A stretch of 64,000 nucleotides of DNA from a virus (IMGVR_UViG_3300010354_000082:1-64000), one strand, 5' to 3'. Positions 12,646-57,516 are shown, counted from the stretch's first letter. The notes: generated by a model not told the origin, from the sequence alone. Made by a program: numbers and translations.

Positions 12646-13432
12646 CTTCCCAACTGGCAAGCCCCACGTGTCCTACTCAGAAGTGTCCTGTTGGACAGCG
12701 TGCGGCTGGAAACACAAGCTCACGTATGTCGACAAGGTCCCGCTGCCTGACCAGGACTGGATTCACGCGAATTTCGGGACTCACGTCCACGCCGGAGTCG
12801 AAAATTACCTGAAGACTCGGACGATGAACATCGAGGCTGTCACCCAGGCCATCGAGAAAGAGTGGATCGAAAAGGGCCGCAAGGAAATTGAGAAGTGGAA
12901 GACGTGGGCTCACAACATCCTCACCGACTTTCCGGGATGGATGGACGAGAATTTTCCGGGCTGGGAACTCCTCGGCGCCGAGCTCTCTCTCTACGAGGAC
13001 ATTCCCGAAGAGGAGTCGATCAAGTTCAAAGGATTTGTGGACTGCGTCATTCGCGCTCCCCTCAATGAGGAGAAGACACGCTGGAAAGTCTGGATTCTCG
13101 ACTGGAAGACGGGTCCTGCGTACGGGTGGAAGCGAGAGAAGCTCGAGGACGACCTCACACTCGCCCAGCTCTGGCTCTACAAGTCTTTCCTCACGCGCAA
13201 GCTCGATGTCAACAGTCGAGAAATGGGCTGCGCATTCGTGGTCCTGAAGAAGGGCGCGAAACCCGGATCGACCATTTCTCGCTATGACATCTCTGTCGGT
13301 CCCAAGCCGATGGAGAAGGGAGAAAAGATGGTCAGAAATATGGTCACCGGAGTCAGAAAGGGAAAGTTCATCAAAAACAAGTATTCTTGCGAGTGGTGTG
13401 ACTATCGCAAGGCAGGAATCTGCACGCCGTAA
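12638..13432 (+). CDS. Cas4/RecB-like PD-(D/E)XK nuclease with cysteine cluster
   Basis: A 264-residue protein starting at TTG 12638 behind AAGGAAAG and overlapping the glf stop. It has the PD-(D/E)XK core: Asp135 in KGFVDCVI, and Asp155 and Lys157 in WILDWKTG. A histidine-containing helix, GTHVHAGVENYL, lies upstream, and a QLWLYK helix follows as in RecB/Cas4 nucleases. Cys18/Cys22 near the start and Cys251, Cys254 and Cys262 at the end (CEWCDYRKAGIC) could hold an iron-sulfur cluster as in Cas4 and AddB. Members are DNA exonucleases used in recombination or genome processing. Its position between glf and glycosyltransferases is odd; it probably belongs to the replication or packaging set. 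No cas1/cas2 or CRISPR repeat is present, so a CRISPR role is not suggested. Confidence 0.8.
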   Translation: MTDFPTGKPHVSYSEVSCWTACGWKHKLTYVDKVPLPDQDWIHANFGTHVHAGVENYLKTRTMNIEAVTQAIEKEWIEKGRKEIEKWKTWAHNILTDFPGWMDENFPGWELLGAELSLYEDIPEEESIKFKGFVDCVIRAPLNEEKTRWKVWILDWKTGPAYGWKREKLEDDLTLAQLWLYKSFLTRKLDVNSREMGCAFVVLKKGAKPGSTISRYDISVGPKPMEKGEKMVRNMVTGVRKGKFIKNKYSCEWCDYRKAGICTP

Positions 13433-13441
13433 TACTTATTA
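13431..13441 (+). promoter_or_regulatory. Candidate late promoter motif
   Basis: AATACTTATTA begins at the stop codon of the nuclease gene. It is one of a set of related intergenic motifs in this window (consensus nATA[C/G][T/A]TAnTA) that I propose as -10-type late promoters read by the gp55-like factor. It precedes a hairpin leader and a glycosyltransferase gene. Confidence 0.5.
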
Positions 13442-13453
13442 CGTTTACAATCT

Positions 13454-13487
13454 TGCCTCGCGTAAGGATGATGGTTTACGCGAGGCA
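13454..13487 (+). promoter_or_regulatory. 12-bp leader hairpin hiding a Shine-Dalgarno
   Basis: TGCCTCGCGTAA (13454-13465) pairs perfectly with TTACGCGAGGCA (13476-13487) around a 10-base loop. The right arm contains GAGG, the only ribosome-binding-like sequence at a proper distance (five bases) from the TTG start at 13491. The short following sequence TCTTTG is a poor terminator tail, so translational control seems likelier than termination, though attenuation is possible. Confidence 0.5.
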
Positions 13488-13490
13488 TCT

Positions 13491-14735
13491 TTGCATAAGA
13501 AGAAAGTTCTAATTCTTTCCGATCACGCTCTCTCGACCAGCGGCGTCGCCACGCAGACGAGACATCTCGTCAACGGCCTCCTGCAGAAGGGTGGGTGGAC
13601 ATTCCGCCAGTTCGGCGCCGCTCTCAAGCACGCGAACTACCAGACGGTGATGGTGAACGAGGATTTCATCATCAAGCCCATTGACGGCTTTGGAGACAGA
13701 AATCTCCTGCGATCCGCGATCGTCAACGAGCGACCTGACGCGATTCTCATCTTCACAGACCCCAGGTTCTTCACCTGGCTGTTCGAAATGGAGGACGAGA
13801 TCCACCAGGTATGTCCTATCGCGTGGTGGCACGTGTGGGACAACTACCCGGCTCCCGAGTTCAACCGCCCGATGTACGAGGCGACAGACCTCATCAACTG
13901 TCACTCGTATCTCACATATGAAATTTGCAAGGGAATGTTCCCCGAGAAAACGAACTTCATTCCCCACGCAGTCCCAACGGGAATTTTCAAGTCTCTTCCG
14001 AAACAGGAAGTCGATGCGTGGAAGCTGCAGCTTCTCGGTCCAGAGCGCAAGGACCACTTCATCGCATTCTGGAACAACAGGAACGCGAGGAGAAAGCGAC
14101 CAGGCGACGTCCTCGAGTCCTGGAAGATCTTTCTCGACGAGCTGCAGGCGAAACACGGTCACAAGAAAGCGACTCTGCTGATGCACACCGATCCATTCGA
14201 TCAGGAGGGTCCAAATCTTCACGAAGTCTCGAGGATGCTCGGCATCAGTCAGAACGTCACCTACTCGACCGAGAGGATCGACTTTGACAAGATGAACGTC
14301 CTCTACAATGTCAGCGACGTGACGATCAATATCTCTTTTGCCGAAGGATTCGGTCTCTCGACTCTCGAGGCAATGACGATCGGCAAGCCCATTATCGCGC
14401 TGAAGACCGGCGGTCTTACCCGACAGGTCGTCGACCACCGCGACGGCTCGGAGAATGGAGTCGCCCTCCCTGTCGAGCTGCGAACGATCGTCGGGTCGCA
14501 GTCGGTCCCATACATCTACGAGGATTACGTCTCTGCAGAGACGACGGCGGCAGCGATTATGAAAATTTACGATCTCGGTCCCGAGGGTCGAGAGGCGCTC
14601 GGTAAGAAGGCACGCGAATACGTGGAATCGGAATTCTCGATGCAGGCGACCATCGACGCCTGGCACGAGTCTCTCAGCGCTCTCATTGAGAACTGGCGAG
14701 AGAAGAGAAAGAGTTGGACGGTGGAGGCGCTATGA
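13491..14735 (+). CDS. GT4 family glycosyltransferase
   Basis: A 414-residue GT-B enzyme. I chose TTG 13491 because the protein fold begins right after it, (M)HKKKVLILSDHALSTSGVA; the longer upstream reading overlaps the previous gene and crosses the intergenic hairpin. The C-terminal half has the retaining GT4 signature ISFAEGFGLSTLEAMTIGKP, with the E-x7-E pair that contacts the nucleotide sugar, and SYLTYEICKGMFPEKTNFIP marks the domain linker. Similar genes are common in T4-like cyanophages and related myoviruses. The start region is folded into a perfect hairpin and follows a candidate late promoter, so expression may be late and controlled at translation. It overlaps the next gene as ATGA. 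The sugar is unknown. Confidence 0.85.
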   Translation: MHKKKVLILSDHALSTSGVATQTRHLVNGLLQKGGWTFRQFGAALKHANYQTVMVNEDFIIKPIDGFGDRNLLRSAIVNERPDAILIFTDPRFFTWLFEMEDEIHQVCPIAWWHVWDNYPAPEFNRPMYEATDLINCHSYLTYEICKGMFPEKTNFIPHAVPTGIFKSLPKQEVDAWKLQLLGPERKDHFIAFWNNRNARRKRPGDVLESWKIFLDELQAKHGHKKATLLMHTDPFDQEGPNLHEVSRMLGISQNVTYSTERIDFDKMNVLYNVSDVTINISFAEGFGLSTLEAMTIGKPIIALKTGGLTRQVVDHRDGSENGVALPVELRTIVGSQSVPYIYEDYVSAETTAAAIMKIYDLGPEGREALGKKAREYVESEFSMQATIDAWHESLSALIENWREKRKSWTVEAL

Positions 14736-15880
14736 AAAAGTCGGTAGTCCTGAGAGCCCCGCTGCTCTCCAATTCTGGTTATGGAACCCACGCCCGACAG
14801 ATCTTTCGCTGGCTGGAGACGAGGAACGTTGAGATTGTTTCTGACATCCTCAACTGGGGCGCCACATCGTGGTTCCTCAACCACGATGCAGAGGGTGGAC
14901 TCGTCGGTAGGATCATCAATTCTGCGAAGCAGCCGTCGAAGACCCCTGACCTGATGATCTCCCTCCAGCTGCCGAACGAGTGGCAGCGTCTCCCAGGCGC
15001 AAAGTGCGTCGGTATGTCGGCGGTGGTGGAGACCGACAGATGTAATCCTGACTGGGTGAAAGCGTGCAATGAGATGGACAGGGTGATCGTTCCTTCGACA
15101 TTCTGTAAGAGTCTCATCAGCGCGTCGACGGCCGATGTCAGGGTCGTTCCGGAATCATTTCACGATGACATTGTGACGGCAGAGCCCCTGAACCTGCCGC
15201 AGGTGAAGACCAAGAAGAACTTTCTGCTCGTAGGTCAGCTGTCAGGTATCAAGCCCGAGCTCGACAGAAAGAACATCTTCTACACCGTCAAGTGGTTCTG
15301 CGAGGAATTCAAGGACAGTCCCGACGTCGGCCTGATCATCAAGACAAACCTCGGAACAAACTCGACGTTCAATAAGAACAACCTCCGAAACATCTTCACG
15401 AACCTCGTCAATGAAGTTCGTCGCGCCGGCAAGACACCGCCCATCTATCTCATCAACGGAGAGATGACGACTGCTGAGATTGCGTCGCTGTATCGAAGTC
15501 CGAAGGTCACGGGACTCCTATCACTCACCCGCGGAGAGGGATACGGTCTTCCGATTCTCGAGGCGGCTGCCTCCGACCTACCGGTCATCTGCACAGGATG
15601 GTCGGGTCACCTCGACTTTATGAATCGCGGCAAGTTCATCAGCGTCGAGCACGATCTCATCCCCGTTCCAACAGAGAAGGTAGACAATCAAATCTTCGTC
15701 CCGGGTTCTCAGTGGGCGATGCCCAAAGAGGCTGACGCAAAGAAGAAGATGAGAAAGTTTATGAATTCTCCTGAGATGCCGAAGAAGTGGGCTGCCGACC
15801 TCGGAAAACTTCTTCGCGCTGAATTCTCTTCTGAAGCGGTCTTCAAGTCATACGACAGAGAACTCGGTGACTTGCTATGA
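14732..15880 (+). CDS. GT4 family glycosyltransferase
   Basis: A 382-residue GT-B enzyme. ATG 14732 overlaps the previous stop as ATGA and follows a GGTGGAGG ribosome site, so it is preferred over the in-frame TTG at 14714. The N-terminus (VVLRAPLLSNSGYGTHARQI) gives the glycine-rich acceptor-side loop. The middle VGMSAVVETDRCNPDWV and VIVPSTFCKSLI are typical of this GT4 branch, and TRGEGYGLPILEAAASDLPV is the EX7E donor motif. It is probably the partner of the preceding GT4 gene, the two adding successive sugars in the cytoplasm to a virion protein or a lipid carrier. The next gene overlaps by four bases, tying the end of the glycan island to the sigma-factor operon. Confidence 0.85.
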   Translation: MKKSVVLRAPLLSNSGYGTHARQIFRWLETRNVEIVSDILNWGATSWFLNHDAEGGLVGRIINSAKQPSKTPDLMISLQLPNEWQRLPGAKCVGMSAVVETDRCNPDWVKACNEMDRVIVPSTFCKSLISASTADVRVVPESFHDDIVTAEPLNLPQVKTKKNFLLVGQLSGIKPELDRKNIFYTVKWFCEEFKDSPDVGLIIKTNLGTNSTFNKNNLRNIFTNLVNEVRRAGKTPPIYLINGEMTTAEIASLYRSPKVTGLLSLTRGEGYGLPILEAAASDLPVICTGWSGHLDFMNRGKFISVEHDLIPVPTEKVDNQIFVPGSQWAMPKEADAKKKMRKFMNSPEMPKKWAADLGKLLRAEFSSEAVFKSYDRELGDLL

Positions 15881-16167
15881 ACGAGATCGCTCTCTACGCC
15901 ATCATAGGACTCGAGACTTCGCTCCTTGTCGTGGCGTTTTTCTATCTCGCTCGGTTCTCGATGACACTCCTCAGATTCCAGGAGGAGATTGAGAAGTCTC
16001 TTGACTCTCTGGACGAGAGATACCGGTCAATCTCGAAGGTCCTTGAAATTCCGCTGTTCTACGACTCTCCTGAAGTGAGACGGGTAGTAGAGGACGTGAG
16101 AGCCTGTCGGGAGTCCATCCTCCAGGTCGCCCAGAAGCTCGGCCGCGTAGAGGAGGAAGAGTCTTGA
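15877..16167 (+). CDS. Small single-pass membrane protein with coiled coil
   Basis: A 96-residue protein with one strong hydrophobic segment (residues 5-27, within YAIIGLETSLLVVAFFYLAR) and a charged helical remainder (FQEEIEKSLDSLDERYRSI) likely to form a coiled coil in the cytoplasm. It lacks a cleavable signal peptide. It overlaps the preceding glycosyltransferase (ATGA) and the following sigma factor, so all three may be co-translated. I do not recognise a family. Possible roles are a membrane anchor for glycan enzymes or a spanin or holin accessory; nothing in the sequence decides this. Confidence 0.65.
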   Translation: MNEIALYAIIGLETSLLVVAFFYLARFSMTLLRFQEEIEKSLDSLDERYRSISKVLEIPLFYDSPEVRRVVEDVRACRESILQVAQKLGRVEEEES

Positions 16168-16886: not shown

Positions 16887-17242
16887 AGAGCGCAGCAAAG
16901 GCGATGAAGGATCTCCAGAACAAAGAGTCGAAGATGAAAAATTTCGGAGATCTCATCGATTCAATCGAGTCCGCAGACGAGAAGAAGAAGTTTCTCTGGA
17001 AGCAGATTTATGAGAACGCTGTCAGCGATCGGGAGCTCGCGAGCGTCCTCTACACGCAGCTCTTCTCTTCGAGCTCGGGCTCGACAAATGATCACAATAC
17101 TTACGGTCCAATGCTCGTCAGGTATCTCGAGAGAATGGGAAAGTGCACTGAGCAGCTCATCAAGCTTGCCGAGATGATCGACGACGCAGACAGGAGCACG
17201 ACAGCTCCGGAAGACATGTATGACGCGATCCAGGAGAAGTAA
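16883..17242 (+). CDS. Conserved-looking helical phage protein, unknown function
   Basis: A 119-residue protein starting at TTG 16883, overlapping the sigma-factor stop (TTGA) with GGGAGGT upstream. It is predominantly helical and charged (DSIESADEKKKFLWKQIYEN), with a central serine-rich loop (LFSSSSGSTND) and no recognisable catalytic motif. It lies between the late sigma factor and the baseplate spike, and its stop shares one base with the next ATG (TAATG). It could be a late-transcription accessory protein or a baseplate chaperone. I recognise no family. Confidence 0.6.
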   Translation: MKSAAKAMKDLQNKESKMKNFGDLIDSIESADEKKKFLWKQIYENAVSDRELASVLYTQLFSSSSGSTNDHNTYGPMLVRYLERMGKCTEQLIKLAEMIDDADRSTTAPEDMYDAIQEK

Positions 17243-18890: not shown

Positions 18891-18901
18891 AATACATAGT
18901 A
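18891..18901 (+). promoter_or_regulatory. Candidate late promoter before gp25
   Basis: AATACATAGTA lies 16 bases before the start codon of the gp25-like gene, in a 40-base gap. It matches the nATA[C/G][T/A]TAnTA set. No good -35 box is found at 16-18 bases upstream, as expected for a gp55-type promoter. Confidence 0.6.
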
Positions 18902-18917: not shown

Positions 18918-19400
18918 TTGGCAACTGCAAAAGTCTATGACTTCCTCTCAGTAGGCGAGCGAGAATCGACTTACAGGAGAAGGACCAACGTCACTCAGCC
19001 ACAGGTCCCAATCGGCATCAAGACTCCCTTGGAAAAGGGTCAGGATGCCGACGGACTTTTCGTGATGCACAAGAATCTCGAAGACACGATCAGTGATAAC
19101 CTTCGAAATTTGCTGCTCACGAACCACGGCGAGCGCCTCTTTCGCTACGACTACGGTGCAAACCTTCGCGAGCTCGCTTTCGAGCTCGGCACCGAAGAAG
19201 GAGACACCGAAGCGATTCTCAGAATACGCGAGGCAGTCTCGAAATATCTTCCGTATGTGAACCTCCAGACTTTTGAATCGCGGCAGACTCCGTCGACATA
19301 CACCGAGCCTTCGAAAGTGATCGTAAAAGTCACTTACAGCGTTCCTGGAGTGAGTCAGAAACAGAGAGTAATTGAAGTCATCATTTCGGCGGTGAACTAA
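18918..19400 (+). CDS. Baseplate wedge protein, gp25-like
   Basis: A 160-residue protein starting at TTG 18918 behind an excellent AAGGAGGT site. The core is LLLTNHGERLFRYDYGANLR, the hallmark of the gp25/W-family baseplate wedge protein, where the glutamate and arginine clamp gp6 around the hub. Family proteins are 130-170 residues. gp25 joins the inner wedge of the baseplate and is needed to start sheath assembly, so this gene shows the phage has a contractile tail. The next gene, gp6-like, overlaps by one base (TAATG), preserving the T4-superfamily association. Confidence 0.93.
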   Translation: MATAKVYDFLSVGERESTYRRRTNVTQPQVPIGIKTPLEKGQDADGLFVMHKNLEDTISDNLRNLLLTNHGERLFRYDYGANLRELAFELGTEEGDTEAILRIREAVSKYLPYVNLQTFESRQTPSTYTEPSKVIVKVTYSVPGVSQKQRVIEVIISAVN

Positions 19401-45969: not shown

Positions 45970-46923
45970 ATGCTGGATGCAAACGAACGCTTGAAGTATC
46001 TCTCGGGTGCTCTCGGAACGGGTCACCTGAGCAGGGATGGTCTCAATGCAAGTTTCCGCTGCCCGAAATGCGGGCACAAGGACAAATTCAAGCTCGTTGT
46101 GAAGCTTGATGATGAGAAGTGGCACTGCTGGGTCTGCGGCATCAAGGGCGGCTCAGTAGCGTCACTTCTCGCAAAACACGCAAAGGAGCATCGAAGTGGC
46201 TGGATACAGCGATTCGGCACGGTCGAACAGAAAAAGTTCATCGACGAACCAGAGAAAGAAGAGATTCTCCAGCTGCCTGATGGGTTTCTCCCGCTCGTGG
46301 GAACCAGACTCGATCCCGACTTCTCAGCTGTCGCCAGGTATCTTGACGATCGAGGAGTGGGGGAAAGAGAGATCTGGCGCTACAGGATTGGGACCACTCT
46401 CAGAGGTCGGTGCCGCCGCCGGGCAGTCATCACATCGTACGACTGCGATGGGAAGCTGAACTACTGGACAGGCAGGGCGATAGACGATACTTCGACAGTG
46501 AAGTATGTGAACCCCAGGGTAGAGAGGCGCGACGTCATCTTCAACGAGATTGACATCGACTGGACTCGCGAGCTCACTCTCGTGGAAGGTCCCTTCGATC
46601 TCATTTCCATCGGTGGAAATTCCACCTGTCTTCTCGGTTCGAGCCTCTCTACCTATCACGCTCTCTTTCAGCGCATCGTCGGCAATCAGACACCAGTCGT
46701 CCTTGCTCTCGACAGCGATATGAAGAAAAAATCTCACGACATAGCCAAGTTGTTGTTCACACACGGCGTTTCCGTAAGAATCTTAGATACAGGCACATAC
46801 AAGGACGTGGGAGAAATGCCCGCAGAAGTCCTACAGGAAGCGCACCAGTCAGCGTCTTCGTGGAACCCTAACGACAGACTCTTCCACCTCATTCGCAACA
46901 TCACTTCGGGGTCAATGTTTTGA
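45970..46923 (+). CDS. DnaG-type DNA primase (zinc finger plus TOPRIM)
   Basis: A 317-residue primase. The N-terminal zinc-binding part has Cys31/Cys34 in CPKCGHKDKF and Cys53/Cys56 in WHCWVCG, the template-reading finger. The TOPRIM catalytic region has LTLVEGPFDLISIGG (Glu) and VVLALDSDMKKKSHD (DxD), which coordinate the metal ions for RNA primer synthesis. It is the size of T4 gp61 (342) and lacks a fused helicase. It lies between the resolvase and the recombination nuclease, and probably acts with a replicative helicase encoded elsewhere. It appears to be read from a leaderless sigma70-type promoter, so early expression by host polymerase is likely. Confidence 0.9.
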   Translation: MLDANERLKYLSGALGTGHLSRDGLNASFRCPKCGHKDKFKLVVKLDDEKWHCWVCGIKGGSVASLLAKHAKEHRSGWIQRFGTVEQKKFIDEPEKEEILQLPDGFLPLVGTRLDPDFSAVARYLDDRGVGEREIWRYRIGTTLRGRCRRRAVITSYDCDGKLNYWTGRAIDDTSTVKYVNPRVERRDVIFNEIDIDWTRELTLVEGPFDLISIGGNSTCLLGSSLSTYHALFQRIVGNQTPVVLALDSDMKKKSHDIAKLLFTHGVSVRILDTGTYKDVGEMPAEVLQEAHQSASSWNPNDRLFHLIRNITSGSMF

Positions 46924-49900
46924 GAACCTACAAGATCTGCCACCTTGCCGACGTTCACTGGCGCGGACTCTCGCGACACGAAGAGTATCGGACCGTCTTC
47001 AAGAAAATGTTCGAGGACCTCCGACAGGAGGGGGTCGACGCGATCGTCATCGCCGGGGACATCGTCCACACGAAGACACAGGGAATCTCTCCCGAGGTCA
47101 TCGACCACCTCACGTGGTGGTTCAAGTCATTCGCGGAAATTGCGCCCACCTACGTCACGCTCGGCAACCACGACGGTCTCATTCACAACCCAGACCGCCA
47201 GGACGCCATCGGTCCGATCATCAACGCGATCGGCAGTGACAGGATTCACTTTATGAAAAAGTCGGGGAACTATCCGACTCATATGAAGGGCGTCCGGATT
47301 GCGAACTTCTCTCCCTTCGACGAGGAGGGGTGGGACGACATCGACCGGAAGGGTGAGACTGTCATCGCGATCTTTCACGGCGTGGTGAAGGGCGCGTTCA
47401 CCGACTCCGACTACGCCACCGAGGGTGAGGTCGACCTGAGTCTCTTCGAGGGGTGTCACTACGGGATGTTCGGCGACATCCACAAACACCAGTTCCTCGA
47501 CCGCGACGGTCGCTTCGCCTACCCGGGCTCGACCATCCAGCAGAATTTCGGGGAGTCGCAGGACAAGGGATACCTCCTCTGGGAAATTTCTGGTCCCAAC
47601 TCGTTCAGCGTCGAGCGCCGAGTTCTCGAGTCTCCCCACCCATACGTCACTGTCCAGTGGGCGGGATCGGTAGATGAGACGATCGAGTCGCTCGCCACCT
47701 GTCGCCGCGGCAGTCGCATCAGGGTCTCCTCCAGCGAGAATCTCCTACAGGAAGAGATCAAACAGCTCTCTGCCTACCTGAAAGAGACCCTCGAGGCGCC
47801 TGAGATTGTCTGGAAGTGGGACACCGAGGTGAACAGGTCTGCAGCGACCGAGCGCCTGGAGAACACTCGAAAGAGCCTGCGCGACATCGAGGCGCACCGC
47901 CCGCTCCTCATCGCAGCGCTGAAGGACGAGACCGACATCGACAAGTATCTCGATGTCGTCGGCAAGACTCTCAGTCGCCTCGAGGACGACGAGGAGATCG
48001 TGAGGAACCAGAAGTGGACCCTCGACAAGCTCGAGTGGGAGAACACTTTCTCCTACGGCAAGGACAACGTCATCGACTTCAAGGGTCTCTCGGGCGTCGT
48101 CGGCATCTTCGGTCGCAACAGGATCGGCAAGTCATCGATCCCAGGGACGATGATGTACGCGCTCTTCAACGCGAGCGACCGCGGCGTCCTGAAGCCGATG
48201 AACATCGTCAACACCCGCAAGGGTCACTGCATGGCGTCGGCAGAATTCCGCGTCGACGGAGTCCCATACAGGATCGAGCGGATGACTGCGAAGTCCACGA
48301 ATCGCAAGGGAGTCACGAACGCATCGACCCAGCTGAACTTCTTCAAGATGAACGAGACGGGAGACACTGAGTCTGACCTCACGGGCGAGCAGCGGAAAGA
48401 CTCTGAAAAGGTCCTCCGCAGTCTCGTGGGAACGTCATCTGACTTTCTCCTCACCTCCTTCGCTTCCCAGGGCGAGATGAACACCTTCATCAAGCAGGGC
48501 GCGACACAGAGAAAAGCGCAGCTCGCTCGATTCCTCGACCTCCAGGTCCTCGAGAACGTCTTTCTGAAACTGAAAGAGGACTCGCAGTCCCTGAAGGGGG
48601 TCCTCAAGAGTCTCCCTGACAGGAATTTCCGACTCATTCGCACAGAACTCCTCGACACGATCGCGAGCTGCGACACGAAGATCACTTCTGCTGACCAGGA
48701 GATTGTTCGCCTCGACGAGGAGAGGACGACTCTCAACCAGCGCCTCGCAGGCGTCGAGGAGAAGAAGGGATACACGCAGGACGACGTCGACGACATCGAG
48801 CGCCAGCTGAAAACCGTCAGGACTCGCCTCACCTCCGAGAAGGAGTCGCTCGCCGAGTGCGAGTCCAAGGTCACGGATCTTACGAGAAAGATCGCGGCAA
48901 TCGAACAGATCAAACTCAAGTTCCCCATCGAGGAAATGAACGCGAGAATTGCCGAGCACACGCAGCTCGAGAAGCGCAGCGTCGAGGCGAAACACCTCGT
49001 GGACCGCGAGTCCATCGTCCTCTCCTCTCAGGAAAAGTCCGCTTCCCGTCTCAGCGAGGTTCCCTGCGGAGAGAATTTCCCGACCTGCAAGTTCATCCGC
49101 GACTCCGTGAAGGACAAGAAACTCATCGAGTCCCAGAAGCAGAAATTACAGGAACTCAAGGACTCTCTCCGCGCGATCACCAACGCCCTGAAGTCGAACG
49201 ACATCGACGAGGCGGTGGAGAGGGTGAAGAAATACAACGACGCGATGACGAAAGAGAGAGTCTTCGTCTCCGAGAAGTCGGCCCTCGAGTCTCGAATCTC
49301 TCTCCTGAAGGACGGCATCGAGAAACTCATCTCCCGGTCCGTCTCGCTGGAGAGCAGCCTCGCACACGCTCGAGCCCACATTTCCGACTCCCCTGAGGTC
49401 GAGATCGCCTCGCAGAACCGCCGCCGCCTCGCAGAGGTCGACAGGATGCTGCGAGAGGCCCGCCAGGCCGTCGTCGACTGCAACAAGCGCAAGGCTGTCA
49501 GCCAGGAGAAGATGCAGACTCTCGATGAAGAGGAGCGCCGCCTCGCAGAAGTGAAGTCCCAGTGGACTTTCTATGAAAAGTTGCTCGGGGCGTATAACAA
49601 AGACGGCATTCCGATGATGATTATCAGGAATGAACTACCTCGAATCAACGAAGAAATCGCTAAGATTCTTCACGGCATCACTGGATTCACCGTCATTCTC
49701 GAGACTGACGAGTCTGGTTCTGACCTCGACATCTCCATCGACTACGGAGACTCCCGTCGTCCCATCGAGATGGGCTCGGGAATGGAGAAGATGCTCGCGT
49801 CGATGGCGATCCGCGTGGCGCTCATCAACATCTCGAGCCTGCCCAAGTCCGATATGCTCATCATCGACGAGGGCTTCGGGGCGCTCGATGAGCAGAACGT

Positions 49901-50066
49901 TGAGGCGTGCAACAAGCTGCTCCACTCTCTCAAGCGGTTTTTCAAGACAATCCTCGTCATCTCCCACGTCGATGCTGTGAAGGATGCTGTCGATGGGTTC
50001 ATTGAGGTCACAACGAGAGGGGCAGATGCACATGTTAGCACCGCTGATTCAATACCGAGTAATTAG
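46920..50066 (+). CDS. Fused SbcD-SbcC (gp47-gp46) recombination nuclease/ATPase
   Basis: A single 1048-residue chain that joins what are two proteins in T4 and bacteria. Residues 1-340 are the Mre11/SbcD phosphoesterase: Asp11/His13 in LADVHWRG, AGDIVH (Asp47), LGNHD (83-85), IFHG and FGDIHKH. From about residue 365 the chain is SbcC/Rad50: the domain start WENTFSYGKDNVIDFKGL, Walker A GRNRIGKSS (398-406), a long coiled coil, a hook-like Cys716-x6-Cys723 (PCGENFPTCKF), a signature-like MGSGMEKMLAS and Walker B MLIIDEGFGALD (979-990). It processes DNA ends for recombination-dependent replication. It starts at TTG overlapping the primase stop (TTGA). No frame break was found. Confidence 0.9.
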   Translation: MRTYKICHLADVHWRGLSRHEEYRTVFKKMFEDLRQEGVDAIVIAGDIVHTKTQGISPEVIDHLTWWFKSFAEIAPTYVTLGNHDGLIHNPDRQDAIGPIINAIGSDRIHFMKKSGNYPTHMKGVRIANFSPFDEEGWDDIDRKGETVIAIFHGVVKGAFTDSDYATEGEVDLSLFEGCHYGMFGDIHKHQFLDRDGRFAYPGSTIQQNFGESQDKGYLLWEISGPNSFSVERRVLESPHPYVTVQWAGSVDETIESLATCRRGSRIRVSSSENLLQEEIKQLSAYLKETLEAPEIVWKWDTEVNRSAATERLENTRKSLRDIEAHRPLLIAALKDETDIDKYLDVVGKTLSRLEDDEEIVRNQKWTLDKLEWENTFSYGKDNVIDFKGLSGVVGIFGRNRIGKSSIPGTMMYALFNASDRGVLKPMNIVNTRKGHCMASAEFRVDGVPYRIERMTAKSTNRKGVTNASTQLNFFKMNETGDTESDLTGEQRKDSEKVLRSLVGTSSDFLLTSFASQGEMNTFIKQGATQRKAQLARFLDLQVLENVFLKLKEDSQSLKGVLKSLPDRNFRLIRTELLDTIASCDTKITSADQEIVRLDEERTTLNQRLAGVEEKKGYTQDDVDDIERQLKTVRTRLTSEKESLAECESKVTDLTRKIAAIEQIKLKFPIEEMNARIAEHTQLEKRSVEAKHLVDRESIVLSSQEKSASRLSEVPCGENFPTCKFIRDSVKDKKLIESQKQKLQELKDSLRAITNALKSNDIDEAVERVKKYNDAMTKERVFVSEKSALESRISLLKDGIEKLISRSVSLESSLAHARAHISDSPEVEIASQNRRRLAEVDRMLREARQAVVDCNKRKAVSQEKMQTLDEEERRLAEVKSQWTFYEKLLGAYNKDGIPMMIIRNELPRINEEIAKILHGITGFTVILETDESGSDLDISIDYGDSRRPIEMGSGMEKMLASMAIRVALINISSLPKSDMLIIDEGFGALDEQNVEACNKLLHSLKRFFKTILVISHVDAVKDAVDGFIEVTTRGADAHVSTADSIPSN

Positions 50067-50280
50067 TCCAGGACTCCCAAGAGTCGCATCGTTCTGTCCC
50101 ATCTGCAAGTCAGCAGTCGGAGACCTCACCGATGTAGAGTCGATGGAGTCTGCCGGCTGCTGTCGCGCTTGCGAGCAGGAATTCTACGAGCCCCGGCGCG
50201 AGGAATGGGTCCTCGGCTGGCGTCCCGCACAGAAAGACATCGAGGCCGCCAGGGAATCGAGAATCTTTGTGGCGCGGTGA
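50032..50280 (+). CDS. Small zinc-ribbon-like protein
   Basis: An 82-residue protein. I chose ATG 50032, with GAGGGG about nine bases upstream, over the ATG at 50026 and longer reading inside the SbcC end. It contains SFCPICKSAVGD and AGCCRACEQEF, a C-x2-C...C-C-x2-C arrangement likely to bind one zinc ion. The remainder is short and charged (WVLGWRPAQKDIEAARESR). Zinc ribbons this size usually bind nucleic acid or transcription proteins. It overlaps the end of the nuclease gene and precedes a candidate late promoter at its own stop codon. Its role is unknown; it may be a small transcription or replication accessory. Confidence 0.65.
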   Translation: MLAPLIQYRVISPGLPRVASFCPICKSAVGDLTDVESMESAGCCRACEQEFYEPRREEWVLGWRPAQKDIEAARESRIFVAR

Positions 50281-50290
50281 ATACTTATTG
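50280..50290 (+). promoter_or_regulatory. Candidate late promoter before the terminase operon
   Basis: AATACTTATTG starts on the stop codon of the zinc-ribbon gene, 13 bases before ATG 50304, and nearly repeats the motif at 13431. It would drive the terminase and portal genes. Confidence 0.55.
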
Positions 50291-50673: not shown

Positions 50674-52254
50674 ATGCCTACCACAAAGCAGGCGCAGGTC
50701 AATGAGATAATCAAGTGCGGCAAGGATCCCGTCCACTTCATCAACAAGTGGACGAAGATCACGCACCCCGAGAAAGGTCTCATCAAGTTCAGCACCTACC
50801 CATTCCAGGACAGGTGTGTCAAAGAATTTGCAAAGCACCGCTTCAACATCGTTCTCAAGAGTCGACAGCTCGGACTATCGACGGTGACTGCTGCGTTCGC
50901 TCTCTGGCGAGCAATCTTCTACAAGGAAAAGAACATCCTCGTCATTGCGACGAAGCTGTCGACAGCAGCAAACTTCATCAGAAAGGTGAAGACGATGTTG
51001 ACAGCCCTGCCGCCATGGCTGCTCATTCCCGAGATTGTCTCGGAAACGAAGACGGGGATAGAATTCTCGAACGGCTCAGTGATCAAGGCGGTCCCAACGT
51101 CGGAGGACGCCGGTCGTTCTGAAGCCCTGTCGCTCCTCATCATCGACGAGGCTGCGTTCATCAGAAACTTCGAGGAACTCTGGAAGGGTCTCTACCCCAC
51201 GCTGTCGACGGGTGGTGCGGCAATCATCCTCAGCACCCCCAACGGCGTGGGAAATCAGTATCACAAGCTGTGGATAGACGCAGAGACTCGAGTCTCCGAC
51301 TTCAATCCCATCAAACTTATGTGGGACGTCCACCCAGAGCGAGACCAGGCGTGGTTCGACAAGGAATCACGCCAGATGACAAGAAAACAGGTCGCGCAGG
51401 AGCTCCTGTGCGACTTTGCCTCGTCAGGCGACACTTACCTGACGGCAGAGGATTTCGAGAGGATACGGACTTCCTCGAGGAGTCCGATAGAGAAGACGGG
51501 TCCCAGCAACAACGTCTGGATCTGGAAATACCCGCTGCCCGACCACAAGTATGTGATTTCTGCCGATGTCTCGCGAGGGGACGCTGCCGACTTCTCTGCC
51601 TTCCACGTGATCGACATCAACGAGTCCGAGCAGGTCTGCGAGTTCAAGGGCAAGATACCGCCCGATCAGCTCGGAATTCTCCTCGCAGAGTTCGGCAATC
51701 GCTACAACAAGGCGCTCGTCTGTCCGGAGAACAACACGTACGGGTTCTCGACAATCACGAAACTTCGAGACATCGGCTACCCGAACCTCCACCTCAACGA
51801 CAGGCGCTACCAGTATGCGGTCGACGTGCCCATTGGCAAGTTCGGTTTCACGACATCAGCCTCGAGCCGCGGCACGGCGCTCACCAAGCTCGAAGAACAC
51901 CTCCGCACGGGCGTCCTGAAGGTCTATTCCGTCAGGCTCATAGAGGAAATGCGGACTTTCGTCTGGCAGGGCGACACGCCCCGAGCGCAGAAGGGGTTCA
52001 ACGACGACCTCGTGATGTCTCTTGCCATCGGCTCGACCCTCTATGAGCCCGTCGCAGGAGGGGAAAAGAAGGTCGGCGGCACCCACACCGCGATGCTCGC
52101 AGCTTTCGGAGTGAACAAGTCGCAGCCGCAGCGTCCGCCACCGGTCTACATGGGTAACCCGTTCGCACCGCGGGGATACGATCCACGAATGCACGAAGAT
52201 TCCACGCAGGCAAACGTTCCGATCCCACCGGGCCTCGCCTGGCTTTACAAATAG
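50674..52254 (+). CDS. Terminase large subunit, gp17-like
   Basis: A 526-residue packaging motor. The ATPase part has the adenine-binding YPFQDR (42-47), a Walker A variant SRQLGLST (63-70, T4-type with no classic GxxxxGK), Walker B LLIIDEA (154-160) with the catalytic Glu, and the coupling motif ILSTPNGVG. The nuclease part starts YVISADVSRGDAADFSAFHV, giving the first metal-binding Asp of the RNase H-like fold, followed by CPENNTYG and a final NDDLVMSLAI with the last acidic pair. Length is somewhat below T4 gp17 (610). It cuts concatemers and pumps DNA through the portal encoded next. It begins four bases after the preceding gene. Confidence 0.94.
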   Translation: MPTTKQAQVNEIIKCGKDPVHFINKWTKITHPEKGLIKFSTYPFQDRCVKEFAKHRFNIVLKSRQLGLSTVTAAFALWRAIFYKEKNILVIATKLSTAANFIRKVKTMLTALPPWLLIPEIVSETKTGIEFSNGSVIKAVPTSEDAGRSEALSLLIIDEAAFIRNFEELWKGLYPTLSTGGAAIILSTPNGVGNQYHKLWIDAETRVSDFNPIKLMWDVHPERDQAWFDKESRQMTRKQVAQELLCDFASSGDTYLTAEDFERIRTSSRSPIEKTGPSNNVWIWKYPLPDHKYVISADVSRGDAADFSAFHVIDINESEQVCEFKGKIPPDQLGILLAEFGNRYNKALVCPENNTYGFSTITKLRDIGYPNLHLNDRRYQYAVDVPIGKFGFTTSASSRGTALTKLEEHLRTGVLKVYSVRLIEEMRTFVWQGDTPRAQKGFNDDLVMSLAIGSTLYEPVAGGEKKVGGTHTAMLAAFGVNKSQPQRPPPVYMGNPFAPRGYDPRMHEDSTQANVPIPPGLAWLYK

Positions 52255-52265: not shown

Positions 52266-52276
52266 GATAGTTACAG
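52266..52276 (+). promoter_or_regulatory. Weak late-promoter-like motif before portal
   Basis: GATAGTTACAG, 13 bases before GTG 52290, keeps the ATA--TA core of the proposed late motif and resembles the copy before the capsid gene. The match is partial. Confidence 0.3.
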
Positions 52277-52289: not shown

Positions 52290-54203
52290 GTGGCAAAACA
52301 ACAAGGGAATCTTTTCTCAAGACTGACCAAACTCTTCAGGAGCGGTCCGGTCATCAGGAGAAAAGTCAAGAATCAGAGCGAGCCGACGGCATCTTCGGCC
52401 TACGAAATTTTCAAGAGAAACGTCTCAGACGTCTACGCGAGCACCGTGAGCGCATACGGCGCGTACGATCGAATGAGTCGCTACTCTGACTTCTCGGAAA
52501 TGGAGGCGACTCCCGAGATCGCGTCGGCCCTCGACATCTACGCCGAGGAGACCGCCTCCCAGGACGACATCGGCCGAGTCCTCCACGTCTACTCCGAGAA
52601 CCGCGCCGTCCAGGAACTCCTGACGAACCTCTTTGACGACGTCCTGAACGTCAATTTCAACCTCCCGATGTGGGTGAGAAACCTCTGCAAGTATGGAGAT
52701 TTCTTTCTCTTCAACGACGTCGACCCGCAGTATGGCGTCATCAACGCGTATCCGATTCCCATCGCGGAGATCGAGCGCGAGGAGGGATACGACCCGAAGG
52801 ATCCGACCGCCGTCCGCTTTCGCTGGATGACTCGCGGCAATACGACGCTCGAGAACTGGCAGGTGACCCATTTCCGTCTCCTCGGCAACGACGCTTTCCT
52901 CCCCTACGGAGCGTCAGTCCTCGAGTCCGCCCGTCGCATCTGGAGACAGCTCATCCTCATCGAGGACGCGATGCTCGTGTATCGCATCGTCCGAGCGCCA
53001 GAGCGCAGGATCTTCTACATCGATGTCGGAAACGTTCCGCCCGATGAGATCGAGAACTACATGCAGCAGACTCAGACGAGCCTGAAGCGCAACAAGGCGA
53101 TCGATCAGTCGACGGGCAAGCTCGACCTCAGATACAATCCTCTCGCCGTCGATGATGACTACTTCATTCCCGTCCGCGGTGGAGAGTCGGGAACGAAGAT
53201 CGAGACGCTCGCGGGCGGTCAGAATGCCGCAGCAGTCGAGGACGTTCAATACATCCAGAAGAAACTCTTTGCTGCGCTGAAAATCCCAAAAGCGTATCTC
53301 GGCTACGATGAGGACATCGGTGCAAAGGCGACGCTCGCCCAGGAGGACATTCGCTTCTCGAGGACAATCGCGAGAATCCAGAAGGTCATCATCTCTGAGC
53401 TCAACAAGCTCGCGATGATCCATCTCTACTCTCACGGCTTCACAGACGATGATCTTCTCAACTTTCACCTGAGTCTCAACAACCCGTCTTCTGTTGCGCA
53501 GCTTCAGAAGCTCGAGCTCATCAAGACAAAGTTCGAAATTGCCGGCGCGGCCCCCGAGGGAGCTGTCGATCGCCAGTGGATTCGCAAGAACATCCTCGGA
53601 CTCACTGACGAGGAAATCAAGAAAGTGAAGGACGGCAGGAAGCTCGATAAGATCGAAGACGCCGAGATTGAAGCAGCGCAGCCGGAATCTGGCGGCGGTG
53701 AGGCTGCTGCTGGTCCAGCAGCCGGTGGTGAGGAGCCCGCTGCTGGTGGTGAGGAGCCCGCAGCTGGTGGCGGCGAAGACCTCTTCTCGGGTGACTACAA
53801 GGAAGGTCCCATCCTCGGAGAGGTCGACGAGTTTCCGATCAAGCCCTCGACTGAGGCGAAGAACGTCTTCGGCGGCCGACGCAAGAAGAAACCCCAGCGC
53901 TCATCGAACGCGAAGGCCGAGATTCCAGACTTTCTCGTAATGACGATGGACAAGCGTCCGCAGTCGACGATGAACGAGCCCTACGGTCCGTCCAATATGC
54001 GCAAGGGCATCTGGGAGGATGACCGTCCGTCTCTCGCTACCGCGATGTTCGGTGAGTCTCCAATTCCAAGAAAGACACCAGAGGTGAATTCTCTTCTAAG
54101 TTTGCTCGGTAGAGAGATAGATACTAAGAGGAGCGCTACACGCTCTGTCCTACGAGAAGACTTGCTATCCAAAGAAATTGGAGAGTCCGACGACAATGAG
54201 TAG
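52290..54203 (+). CDS. Portal protein, gp20-like
   Basis: A 637-residue portal subunit from GTG 52290 with AGGAG upstream. The family core is clear: MSRYSDFSEMEATPEIASAL and DIYAEETASQDDIGRVLHVY, LPMWVRNLCKYGDFFLFNDV, RAPERRIFYIDVGN and KIPKAYLGYDEDIGAKATLA, as in T4 gp20 (524). Twelve copies form the head vertex through which DNA passes and where the prohead starts. The extra length is at the C-terminus: a low-complexity GGEEPAA repeat (near residues 475-495) and a basic linker, then a short helical tail. The tail includes IGE followed by S, a possible site for the phage protease. The next gene starts within its last codons. Confidence 0.93.
   Translation: MAKQQGNLFSRLTKLFRSGPVIRRKVKNQSEPTASSAYEIFKRNVSDVYASTVSAYGAYDRMSRYSDFSEMEATPEIASALDIYAEETASQDDIGRVLHVYSENRAVQELLTNLFDDVLNVNFNLPMWVRNLCKYGDFFLFNDVDPQYGVINAYPIPIAEIEREEGYDPKDPTAVRFRWMTRGNTTLENWQVTHFRLLGNDAFLPYGASVLESARRIWRQLILIEDAMLVYRIVRAPERRIFYIDVGNVPPDEIENYMQQTQTSLKRNKAIDQSTGKLDLRYNPLAVDDDYFIPVRGGESGTKIETLAGGQNAAAVEDVQYIQKKLFAALKIPKAYLGYDEDIGAKATLAQEDIRFSRTIARIQKVIISELNKLAMIHLYSHGFTDDDLLNFHLSLNNPSSVAQLQKLELIKTKFEIAGAAPEGAVDRQWIRKNILGLTDEEIKKVKDGRKLDKIEDAEIEAAQPESGGGEAAAGPAAGGEEPAAGGEEPAAGGGEDLFSGDYKEGPILGEVDEFPIKPSTEAKNVFGGRRKKKPQRSSNAKAEIPDFLVMTMDKRPQSTMNEPYGPSNMRKGIWEDDRPSLATAMFGESPIPRKTPEVNSLLSLLGREIDTKRSATRSVLREDLLSKEIGESDDNE
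53724..53770 (+). repeat. 21-base tandem repeat in portal gene
   Basis: GGTGGTGAGGAGCCCGC occurs at 53724-53740 and again at 53745-53761 (21-base period), followed by a partial third copy. It encodes G-G-E-E-P-A-A repeats in a flexible linker. In-frame slippage could change the copy number. Confidence 0.75.
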
Positions 54204-55041
54204 TCACAACAAGAAGCGGAATGTCGGGCTGATCTACGAGCAACTCATTCGGTACGCCTCCAAGTGCATTCTTGAAGGGCGGACAGAGAGGGCCGAGATC
54301 GCCATGCAGATCCTGAAAGAGCACTTTCGTCCTGGCACTGAGCTCTACAAAGAGTTCAGACTTTTCAACGCGCTCATTCAGACCACTGTTCCCACAGAAG
54401 CTCTCGCTCTCAGAGTGCTCGAGGAAGCTCGCAAGGCTGCAACGACTCACGACAGCGGAAGACTCGACACCGAGAAGAGCGCGCTCATCAGAAACATCAA
54501 CAAGCGAATCGACTTCCCGGGATTCTTCGATATGAGAATTCCCGAGTATCGAAAGCTCGCTACGGTCCAGACTCTTCTCAATGACTGGCGCTCTACCGAC
54601 TCGGCATTCTCAGCCCAGCGCGTCGTCTACGAGGGCAAGGTCGTCGCCCACCTCACCGAGAAGGTAGAGGCGCCGAAGATCGTGAAGAAGAGCGAAGTGA
54701 CGTCCCTCTCCCTCAAGCTTATGCAGGAGAAGCTCGAGAGGAAATACTCATCGAGCCTCACGGCTGAGCAGATCAAGCTCATCAACCTCTACGTGAAAGC
54801 CTCGACCCGAGGCGACGCGAAGCCGCTGATGGAGGCCTGCACGAGCATCAAGTCGCGTGCTGTCCGCGCTCTCGACCAGCTCCGCAGGGAGAAGGGCGAG
54901 GGGATCATCACGGAGAAGGTCGATCCAGTGAAGAAGGAAGTCGAGTCGCTTCCCAACCAGAACATTCAAGAGGGCGATCTCACGAAATACCTGACGCTCA
55001 TCAAACTCATCTCGGAGGCGGAGGACAAAGATGTCAAGTGA
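54196..55041 (+). CDS. Probable prohead core/assembly protein between portal and protease
   Basis: A 281-residue protein. ATG 54196 sits inside the portal end (eight-base overlap) with GGAGAG ten bases upstream; a TTG at 54178 is a weaker choice. The start, NKKRNVGLIYEQLIRYASKC, is a pattern I know from unknown proteins at this place in T4-like phages. The rest is mostly helical and basic/acidic mixed (KSEVTSLSLKLMQEKLERKY). It lies between portal and protease, where T4 has the small core proteins gp67 and gp68, but it is longer than either. The C-terminal LISEAEDKDVK contains I-S-E before A, which fits the protease site. A core or portal-associated assembly role is likely but inferred. Confidence 0.7.
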   Translation: MSSHNKKRNVGLIYEQLIRYASKCILEGRTERAEIAMQILKEHFRPGTELYKEFRLFNALIQTTVPTEALALRVLEEARKAATTHDSGRLDTEKSALIRNINKRIDFPGFFDMRIPEYRKLATVQTLLNDWRSTDSAFSAQRVVYEGKVVAHLTEKVEAPKIVKKSEVTSLSLKLMQEKLERKYSSSLTAEQIKLINLYVKASTRGDAKPLMEACTSIKSRAVRALDQLRREKGEGIITEKVDPVKKEVESLPNQNIQEGDLTKYLTLIKLISEAEDKDVK

Positions 55042-55654
55042 TAAGAAACTGCTCACAGAGTGGGCGGCCTGGTCATACACTCCCGAGATGATCAAGGAGA
55101 GCCGCGAGAAGCACGCTGGCAAGATTATGATGAAGGGTATCCTGCAGAAGGCCGAGACCCTCAACCAGAACGGTCGCGTCTACCCCCTCTCCATTCTCGA
55201 GCGCGAAGTTCGCAACTACCAGAAGTTCATTCGCGAGAACCGTGCCCTCGGCGAGTGCGACCACCCAGAGAGCTCTGTCGTCGAACTCAAGAAAGTGAGT
55301 CACATCATTCGCGAGGCGTGGATGGAGGGCAACGTCTGCTACGGAACTGTCGAGATCCTCGACACTCCGATGGGTAAGATCCTCCAGAGCCTCGTGGAAT
55401 CGGGCGTCACTCTCGGCATCTCTTCCCGCGGCGTGGGCTCCACCAAGCGCGACGGCGACTCCCAGGTCGTCCAGGAAGATTTTCAGCTCATCTGCTGGGA
55501 CTTCGTTGCCGAGCCCTCGACTCCCGGCGCGTTTATGATGGCTGAGGGTAAAAGAATTTCTGACGCTGACCTCCGAAAGACCTTCACTCGGGGTGACAGG
55601 ATCGATAGAGTCTTCAATGAAGTCCTATCGTGGAGGAAGAGTGACAAGAAATGA
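55031..55654 (+). CDS. Prohead protease, gp21-like
   Basis: A 207-residue serine protease of the T4 gp21 family. MKGILQKAETLNQNGRVYPL is the typical opening; His78 in LGECDHPES and Ser131/Ser132 in LGISSRGVGS give the candidate catalytic residues, and QLICWDFVAEPSTPGAFM is also conserved. It is enclosed in the prohead, activates itself, then cuts scaffold, capsid and core proteins after L/I-x-E and finally destroys itself. Length matches T4 gp21 (212). It overlaps the preceding gene by 11 bases and the following by 14, which suggests tightly linked stoichiometry. Confidence 0.93.
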   Translation: MSSDKKLLTEWAAWSYTPEMIKESREKHAGKIMMKGILQKAETLNQNGRVYPLSILEREVRNYQKFIRENRALGECDHPESSVVELKKVSHIIREAWMEGNVCYGTVEILDTPMGKILQSLVESGVTLGISSRGVGSTKRDGDSQVVQEDFQLICWDFVAEPSTPGAFMMAEGKRISDADLRKTFTRGDRIDRVFNEVLSWRKSDKK

Positions 55655-56084
55655 ATTGAAAGAGCTCGTGAAAGAGTGTCTGCTCGAGATTATCATCGAG
55701 GGCAGCCCTAGCACTGTCGTCGAGAGCGTGAGAGAGAGGAACAGCAAGCCGCAGGTCCCACAGCCCGCCCCCGCTCGCCGTCCCGCTCTCGATCTCATCC
55801 ACCCGAAGGGCAGACCCGCGTCCTCGTCGTCGGTCCTTCCTCCCGCAGGCACTCGTCCCCGTCCGAGTCCTGCGAACTACAAGGAGCTCGTGGGTGGTAA
55901 CGATGTGATGGCGTCGGTCTTTGCCGACACCGCCGCCTCGGGTCTCGTGGAGTCTCTCGGGACGCCCGGACAGAAAACGAGCAATCCGATAGTCGATACT
56001 GGTGTCGATCCCAACCTCTTCGAGGGAGCGTCAAATTGGTCTGCACTCGCATTTGCAGAACCGACAAGAACTCGCTCGAGGTGA
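55641..56084 (+). CDS. Small head-region protein with protease-type N-terminus
   Basis: A 147-residue protein from GTG 55641, inside the protease end, with GGAGGA four bases upstream. The first 20 residues are a charged helix, (M)TRNELKELVKECLLEIIIE, ending I-I-E before Gly21, which fits a gp21-type cleavage site. The rest is Pro/Ser/Arg-rich (PQPAPARRPALDL) and ends with a structured tail NLFEGASNWSALAFAE. No family is recognised. The layout of a short helical lead then L/I-x-E recurs in the next gene and within the scaffold, suggesting a matured internal head protein or minor core protein. Confidence 0.6.
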   Translation: MTRNELKELVKECLLEIIIEGSPSTVVESVRERNSKPQVPQPAPARRPALDLIHPKGRPASSSSVLPPAGTRPRPSPANYKELVGGNDVMASVFADTAASGLVESLGTPGQKTSNPIVDTGVDPNLFEGASNWSALAFAEPTRTRSR

Positions 56085-56094
56085 ATACATACTA
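56084..56094 (+). promoter_or_regulatory. Candidate late promoter in head operon
   Basis: AATACATACTA begins at the stop codon of the preceding gene, 27 bases before ATG 56122. Good match to the proposed late motif. Confidence 0.58.
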
Positions 56095-56121
56095 AATGAG
56101 CAAATAGCTCCGGAGAGAAAA

Positions 56122-56415
56122 ATGTCGAAGACCCTCACACTCACCCCCGCCCTCCTGCGCAGAATCGTTCTAGAGGAGAAGCGGAAGATTCTGGAAGCGA
56201 AGAAGCAGCAGAACGAGCTCGATGTCCCCGCGGCCGAAGAGGTCGGCGCTGATGAGTATGCAGACTCTCTCGAGGCGCACAAGGACTTCACTGTGAAGGA
56301 AACTGCCCAGCGCCAGTATCGCGATCTCACCCTCGAAGAGAGCCGCCTCGCGGCCCGCCTCGAGAAGATCCGTGAGAGCAAGCGCGCTGTCCGCGCCCGC
56401 CTCGCCCGTCGCTAA
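56122..56415 (+). CDS. Small charged head-region protein
   Basis: A 97-residue protein. I chose ATG 56122 because GGAG lies seven bases before it and a candidate late promoter sits in the gap; the longer upstream reading overlaps the previous gene and that gap. It is almost entirely helical and highly charged: MSKTLTLTPALLRRIVLEEK, then RKILEAKKQQN, ending with ESRLAARLEKIRESKRAV and a basic C-terminus. I-L-E followed by A at residues 23-26 fits a gp21-type site and would release a 25-residue leader. T4 gp67/gp68 prohead core proteins are similar in size and charge, so an internal core protein is a fair guess. No direct family match. Confidence 0.65.
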   Translation: MSKTLTLTPALLRRIVLEEKRKILEAKKQQNELDVPAAEEVGADEYADSLEAHKDFTVKETAQRQYRDLTLEESRLAARLEKIRESKRAVRARLARR

Positions 56416-56443
56416 ATTGAGAAACTAACAAGGAGGAACGGAA

Positions 56444-56941
56444 ATGGGAAGGACATACACATACCCGACCATCAAGACGGTCGGCTCGACCACGAGGTCG
56501 CCCGGCACATCTGACACCGCCAACCTCCAGTCGATGTTTCCAGCGACACCGGGTCTCACGACCGACACCGCGGCCTACAAGCAGCAGGCGCTTGACCTGC
56601 TGCAGGACGGCACCGTCGTCGAGAACCTCCAGGTGGGCAACTACAACCGCGACTTCACCGGCGCACCGAACTATGCCGATGTCCCCACGGGCGCCGGCGG
56701 CCTGCCCGCGTCTCCCTGGGTTCCCAACCCTGTGAGCCCCGGCGAGGGCTCGGTGAACCCGTCGGACATGGCCGCCCCTCCCGAGGGCTATGGCACTGTC
56801 CCGACAAACGGCGCTCACGCGGGCGCCTCGACCACCGTCACGGCAGAGGGTCGCAACCCCGCGACTTCCTCCACCAATATGGCGGCTCGAGTCTCTCCGG
56901 CGAACCTCGGTCAGTCTCCCGCCACTCAGAATGCGTCCTAA
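56444..56941 (+). CDS. Pro/Gly/Ala-rich small head protein
   Basis: A 165-residue protein from ATG 56444 with a very strong AAGGAGG site. The sequence is low in charge and rich in Pro, Gly, Ala, Thr and Ser (NPVSPGEGSVNPSDMAAPPE), so mostly unstructured, with one short helix (AAYKQQALDLLQDGTVVENL). No family is known to me. It lies among small head genes between the protease and the scaffold. A minor capsid or internal head protein is the best guess. The next gene starts inside its last codons. Confidence 0.6.
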   Translation: MGRTYTYPTIKTVGSTTRSPGTSDTANLQSMFPATPGLTTDTAAYKQQALDLLQDGTVVENLQVGNYNRDFTGAPNYADVPTGAGGLPASPWVPNPVSPGEGSVNPSDMAAPPEGYGTVPTNGAHAGASTTVTAEGRNPATSSTNMAARVSPANLGQSPATQNAS

Positions 56942-57488
56942 GTCACTCTGGGAAGCGATCGGCGGCGGCCCCGCCAACTTCCCCAACTATGATGCCCGGA
57001 CTGGTCTCGGCTATGGGACCCAGTCCGGGTTTCACGCTCACAGGCAGTATCAGGGGACCTATCCCTATCGCGAGCCGCTCAGCGACAACGAGGAGGCGGC
57101 AAACGATGCGGAGCACGATCCTGAGCTCGATGTGAAGGTGAGCAAGAAGGTCTCAGCGTATGTCCCGTCGGATCCGCTCGCCACGAAAAAGTCAGACCCG
57201 TTCTACTATTTCGGCGCTGCAACTCGCTTCGAGTCATTCGTCAGAAACCCCACGCGGGGATCGATGGTCCCGAAGCCCGATCTCTACAAGGGCAGGGACA
57301 GCGGGCTCGTGGGCAGCAACGCCTGGCAGGTCACGAAGCCCGTCCTCAACACGTCATCGACCCCTCACGGAACCCAGTTCGCCTCTATCCTACCTGATCC
57401 GAGCGATGACCAGGAAGAGGCACCAGAGCTGATGAAGCTCCGTGGGCTCATCAGAGCTATTTTCGATGAAAATGAGTCGAAAAGATAA
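56931..57488 (+). CDS. Unknown head-region protein
   Basis: A 185-residue protein. ATG 56931 overlaps the previous gene by 11 bases and begins MRPKSLWEAIGGGPANFPNY; the open frame extends further upstream, but only as an Arg/Pro-rich shadow of the previous gene. The chain has DPFYYFGAATRFESFVRNPT, several short helices and an acidic C-terminal helix (PELMKLRGLIRAIFDENESK). It has no strong ribosome site, so translation is probably coupled to the gene before. A structural role in the head is inferred from its place just before the scaffold; no family is recognised. Confidence 0.6.
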   Translation: MRPKSLWEAIGGGPANFPNYDARTGLGYGTQSGFHAHRQYQGTYPYREPLSDNEEAANDAEHDPELDVKVSKKVSAYVPSDPLATKKSDPFYYFGAATRFESFVRNPTRGSMVPKPDLYKGRDSGLVGSNAWQVTKPVLNTSSTPHGTQFASILPDPSDDQEEAPELMKLRGLIRAIFDENESKR

Positions 57489-57505
57489 TTTTCACTCTTG
57501 ACTGC

Positions 57506-57516
57506 CATACTTAGTA
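57506..57516 (+). promoter_or_regulatory. Candidate late promoter before scaffold
   Basis: CATACTTAGTA lies 15 bases before ATG 57532 in a 43-base gap. It matches the proposed late consensus. Confidence 0.6.

Follow-up and report, generated by a model that had tools for sequence, protein, structure and literature searches.

The late promoter of phage T4, TATAAATA, which is used with gp55, consists of a single -10-type element with no -35 box (PMC1524935, PMC2988020, PMC7892883). Published late-promoter dialects comprise TATAAATA, NATAAATA and CTAAATA (PMC1524935, PMC2984593, PMC2988020), of which NATAAATA, with a relaxed position -13, is that of RB49, KVP40 and cyanophage S-PM2 (PMC1524935, PMC2984593), and CTAAATA is that of Aeh1, a precedent for a shifted dialect alongside a diverged gp55 (PMC1524935). 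In the T4 complex the bases at -12, -9 and -8 are flipped into pockets of gp55, where Y97 stacks on A(-12), N13 and H95 contact A(-9), and T99 bonds A(-8) (PMC7892883).

In this study we analysed a stretch of 64,000 nucleotides (the window) from a 64,813-base virus contig that carries T4-type genes for portal, major capsid protein, terminase, head protease, baseplate wedge, primase and a fused gp46/47-like protein, the last a single 1048-aa open reading frame (46920-50066) joining gp47- and gp46-like nuclease subunits (phrog_100, phrog_77). Its major capsid protein has less than 60% identity to that of every named phage, the closest by this measure being Microcystis phage Mel-JY01, Flavobacterium phage immuto and Rhodothermus phage RM378. 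Uncultured relatives are numerous, and several colinear ones, with GC contents of 37 to 54%, were compared. A block of nucleotide-sugar genes (an aminotransferase, two epimerases and UDP-galactopyranose mutase) lies within the phage at 7441-12645, and the closest relatives have no counterparts of the window genes at 3.4-9.6 kb.

The window has in common with T4 a single -10-type element with A-T-A at -12 to -10 and T-A at -7/-6, its position before structural genes, and an encoded gp55 homologue; it differs in that -13 is free, A(-9) is disfavoured and -8 is T or A. We consider it very probable that in this phage, a distant T4-superfamily member, the sites serve as late promoters composed of a -10 element alone and recognized by a gp55-type sigma factor. 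Under this model the promoter would lack a -35 box and read n(-13) A(-12) T(-11) A(-10) [not A](-9) [T/A](-8) T(-7) A(-6). The sigma factor encoded at 16164 would use its sigma-region-2 domain to attach to the core RNA polymerase of the host and would recognize the non-template strand once melted. Transcripts would start about 6 nt past the last A and begin with a short leader containing the Shine-Dalgarno sequence. That the 16164 protein reads the motif, where transcription starts and that it does so late are points we infer. The features concerned are collected in Table 1.

Table 1. Genes and promoter sites in the window, with the sequences at the corresponding places in relatives
Feature	Position	Strand	Remarks	Counterparts in relatives
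Late promoter core AATACTTA (predicted)	13431..13438	+	-13 to -6 in T4 numbering; before glycosyltransferase gene	AATACTTA in G011 and G012; GATAATTA in G003
gp55-like late sigma factor, 240 aa	16164..16886	+	sigma region 2-type domain about 17-125; conserved C-terminal helical domain about 146-240	
Late promoter core AATACATA (predicted)	18891..18898	+	before gp25-like baseplate wedge gene (18918)	kept in G010, G011 and G003; ATACCTA in G012
gp25-like baseplate wedge gene	18918..19400	+	phrog_261, 1.1e-10; downstream of site 18891	
Late promoter core AATACTTA (predicted)	50280..50287	+	before small gene directly upstream of large terminase gene	ATACATA in G003; ATAGTTA in G012
Terminase large subunit	50674..52254	+	phrog_2, 7e-49	
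Late promoter core GATAGTTA (predicted)	52266..52273	+	before portal gene; conserved	ATAGATA in G003; ATAGTTA in G012
Portal gene	52290..54203	+	phrog_213, 2e-74; downstream of site 52266	
Match GATAGATA	54116..54123	+	inside conserved C-terminal coding part of portal gene	
Late promoter core AATACATA (predicted)	56084..56091	+	before 97-aa head-region gene (start 56122/56123)	ATACATA in G003, G012 and L007; ATAGTTA in G004
Late promoter core CATACTTA (predicted)	57506..57513	+	before scaffold-position gene 57532	ATACATA in G003, G012 and G004; ATAGATA in G008; ATAGTTA in L007
Scaffold-position gene	57532..59301	+	position only, directly upstream of major capsid gene	
Doubtful site GATAGTTA	59324..59331	+	before major capsid gene	not conserved in L001-L005 (closest relatives)
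Major capsid protein	59362..61248	+	phrog_138, 1.3e-72	
Probable variant late promoter CATACCTA	61355..61362	+	then conserved 5' leader of gene 61438	ATACCTA in G003; ATAGTTA, same place, in G004 and G005

The original prediction described a recurring nATA[C/G][T/A]TAnTA motif at five sites, all of which are present at the positions given, on the plus strand and either within a short gap or at a stop codon; site 13431, for example, overlaps the codon that ends the exonuclease gene before it. What counts, shuffles and conservation uphold is the core, the 8-mer nATA[C/G][A/T]TA, and the trailing 3' nTA is not kept in relatives. ATASWTANTA has five matches in the window, all on the plus strand (0.11 expected from shuffles), namely four of the previously listed sites and one at 54117, which is probably a coding coincidence; site 50280 deviates at the last base. 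By computation, ATA[CG][AT]TA occurs 11 times on the plus strand. Of these copies, 9 precede a start codon by 20-75 nt (binomial p 4e-11) and 7 fall in gaps (p 1e-8); the minus strand has 4 copies, none near a start. Enrichment before genes, as predicted, is clear against shuffled sequence, with 7 core copies at gap-preceded genes, as against 0.27 on average and never more than 3 when the sequence was dinucleotide-shuffled 2000 times. A search of the window against Rfam gave no match.

Since the pattern in the window was picked after inspection, the independent tests of orthologue conservation, 7-mer ranking and de novo discovery weigh more. In three diverged relatives (37-50% GC), 10 of 12 orthologues of site-bearing genes carry the motif, compared with 2 of 86 other orthologues (p 3e-10). 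The core is kept in place in G003 before gp25, the pre-terminase gene, the portal gene, gene 56122 and the scaffold-position gene, and G012 keeps it at the same five genes except gp25; G011, which has no coverage of the head region, keeps the gp25 site. The gap DNA around the conserved cores has diverged. Two of the three weaker copies that had been listed, 52266 and 61355 (ATACCTA), are likewise kept in relatives, and the third, 59324, is not; the major capsid gene itself has no conserved site of its own. Placement before structural genes, on one strand and maintained between diverged phages, supports the proposal of a late promoter class.

When 7-mers were ranked without bias over 261 upstream gaps of four genomes, ATACATA came first (20 versus 2.5 expected; antisense 2). 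In the gaps of the four genomes ATASWTA occurs 42 times in the sense and 8 times in the antisense direction, at 16-54 times its density in coding sequence, the comparison of genes with gaps having come out in favour of the motif. Expectation-maximization (EM) on the small window set alone returned the Shine-Dalgarno sequence or weak patterns, and pooled and wider sets were therefore used: seeded at random on 468 gaps from 80 capsid-related loci of the wider family, it recovered ATA-n-T-TA de novo in about 48% of gaps, with a log-likelihood of 338 as against 32-46 for shuffled gaps. A short, degenerate motif chosen by eye might owe its recurrence to chance or to the AT-rich composition of gaps, an explanation to which the shuffles, antisense counts, coding densities and orthologous conservation leave a negligible probability.

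The same pipeline returned ATAAATA as the top 7-mer in T4 (14 versus 2.3 expected), and ATAAATA was found in sense and antisense 5 and 0 times in S-CAM9 and 15 and 1 times in HTVC008M, a pelagimyophage, contrary to the failed late-promoter prediction of a pelagimyophage study (PMC7029224); these three controls validate the pipeline. RM378 gave weak TATTTA-type signals only (31 gaps). The strand specificity of the sites and their position upstream of the Shine-Dalgarno sequence would also suit a signal selected in the mRNA and not in the DNA, for instance one for RNA processing or ribosome standby, and mapped T4 5' ends can be processed ends (PMC2988020). However, the core fits the A-T-A..T-A frame of the T4 late promoter, in T4 itself the known promoter is picked up by the pipeline at the corresponding place, and no RNA structure is tied to the motif, which makes a transcript-level signal very improbable.

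A motif of this kind could, alternatively, be a -10 box, ordinary or extended, that the primary sigma factor of the host reads, and an AT-rich -10-like element, a weak enrichment of TG at -15/-14 and weak preferences at -33/-32 and -28 to -26 are what such sigma-70-type promoters might leave. Over 281 sites selected with ATANWTA, however, no -35 box was found, and information stays at or below 0.13 bit at each position upstream of the core and at or below 0.2 bit at all non-core positions, in agreement with the earlier remark that a good -35 box is absent. TAnnnT does not occur in register, TTGACA/TATAAT with 15-19 bp spacing does not occur at the sites, and the TG signal comes in part from the stop codon of the preceding gene. 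Further evidence comes from G003, where a separate class of two-box elements, of the types CCTGT(A/T)C and GTGATTATATT or TAACAGATC, precedes 21 genes and the late core precedes 29, with no gene carrying both (3.1 expected), and from the shifts of the same frame between gp55-bearing lineages. Recognition by the host sigma factor is very improbable.

The G003 genes behind the late core include those for tail tube and tail sheath, and some late-type sites stand before genes that are not necessarily late, such as thymidine kinase. The two-box class looks like an early promoter plus leader: at 187-246 kb of the record (L094-L097), CCTGT(A/T)C and then GTGATTATATT or TAACAGATCTCATCACGGAG stand ahead of short genes.

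Several features were observed beside the sites. Between site 13431 and the glycosyltransferase start lies a strong hairpin (13453-13490, about -22 kcal/mol) with a GAGG Shine-Dalgarno sequence in its 3' arm; G011 retains this hairpin, and so does G012, where the changes are compensatory. Directly after site 61355, the conserved 5' leader of gene 61438 (61363-61440; no Rfam match) has its Shine-Dalgarno sequence enclosed by GTGATC...GATCAC, a pairing kept through compensatory change as GTGAAC...GTTCAC in G004 and G005. A recurrent N-terminal signature like LRRMVRREILRE, possibly a signal for capsid targeting or for cleavage by the prohead protease, is found in genes behind late sites at 55593-56415 of the window and in G003 genes 200439, 201621, 229505 and 252468. 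The scaffold-position gene gave no significant match in a PHROG search.

The motif varies between relatives. ATAGTTA is the main form in G002 and G005, ATAGTTA and ATATTTA occur together in G006 and G008, G019 and G020 have ATATTTA, and G017 and G018 have CTATTTA. Among cultured relatives, Mel-JY01 has ATATTTA, and immuto ATATTTA and ATAATTA, before genes; both encode a gp55-like gene at the same locus, before the baseplate wedge genes, and both differ from the window in having A/T and not C/G at -9, and Q or S at the position of T99. In the literature searched we found no promoter report for either phage.

The original prediction had assigned C or G to the fifth position of the 8-mer (-9) and T or A to the next. 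The latter assignment stands; the former is in part an effect of base composition, since the share of C/G at -9 climbs with genome GC (rho 0.56). A specific new preference for C/G is weakened by this correlation, although C/G exceeds the expectation from composition (198 versus 137 of 385). G011, a low-GC relative, has C at all 3 of its sites. The position is better read as relaxed, disfavouring A (38 of the 281 ATANWTA-selected sites), with C/G favoured in GC-rich genomes.

ATAAATA shows no strand bias in the gaps of the four genomes (3 sense, 4 antisense), and the motif departs from the exact consensus TATAAATA or NATAAATA, which makes it a variant and not a member of the T4 consensus class. 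RB49, KVP40 and S-PM2 retain A(-9) and A(-8), unlike this phage, and the change in Aeh1 is at -12, not at -9/-8; CTATTTA of G017 and G018 combines both changes. A dialect with -9 other than A and T/A at -8 was not found in the literature searched, with subscription papers lying outside it. The proposal of an altered T4-type late promoter is supported, with the refinement that the dialect is shared by a large, little-studied family of related phages and is not restricted to one phage.

A gp55-like gene had been suggested at 16164, and it is a real gp55 homologue. The gene alone matches phrog_234 weakly (0.032), and 6 of 8 members of its family match that profile (best 2e-4). By computation, a 36-member profile of the 16164-type family aligns with annotated gp55 proteins over 113 columns (hhalign 95.6%, E 1.1e-8), beginning near the N terminus of both. 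The commonest Pfam match among the members is PF04542 (13 of 36), the top Foldseek matches of the 16164 model are sigma factors, weak at E 0.017 or worse, and a PDB sequence search with gp55-like profiles returned nothing relevant. In immuto the gp55-like gene lies at the same locus, syntenic with gp25 and gp6.

Aligned with T4 gp55, Y97 corresponds to Y100, which is invariant in the family, and A(-12) is kept in most dialects. H95 is replaced by F98, as by F in the cyanophage gp55 proteins aligned here, and T99 by N102, a position at which most family members have N, S, G or Q. The altered bases at -9 and -8 would be those read by altered residues, a correlation over few lineages with G017 as an exception. 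A one-residue rule, by which T99 would determine A at -8, agrees with the contrast between T4, cyanophage and pelagiphage on one side and most of the 16164-type family on the other; it is broken by G017, which has T at this position, yet uses CTATTTA.

Late transcription in T4 requires gp33 and the sliding clamp gp45. Among 5-7 records of relatives searched, neither the clamp (PF02916, PF09116, phrog_223) nor gp33 (phrog_254) was detected, which leaves the T4 activation route unsupported; clamp-loader-like ATPases are present in two of them. The C-terminal clamp-binding motif of T4 gp55 is SLDFLYE, and by eye we saw none of this type in the 16164-type C terminus. This does not exclude membership in the gp55 family, because the annotated cyanophage and Ochrobactrum gp55 proteins aligned here also lack the T4 form. 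The 240-aa sigma factor differs further in its conserved C-terminal helical domain, which has no counterpart in T4 gp55 and whose best fold match is a sigma region 4 domain (E 2.0, not significant). Because gp33 and the clamp were undetected, the domain is conserved and that match is its best, one might speculate that the sigma factor is self-contained, its C-terminal domain replacing gp33 at the beta-flap with no clamp activation of the T4 type, and that its pocket drifted along with the promoter to give lineage-specific dialects. We regard this scheme as rather unlikely.

The findings provide a consensus for the late promoters of T4-related phages from a large environmental branch, by which late genes can be recognized in the genomes of uncultured phages; a search for the T4 consensus will overlook promoters of this dialect. 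The promoter bases that changed belong to the set drawn into pockets of T4 gp55 in the solved structure, and for this reason the co-evolution of sigma pocket and promoter becomes a testable question.
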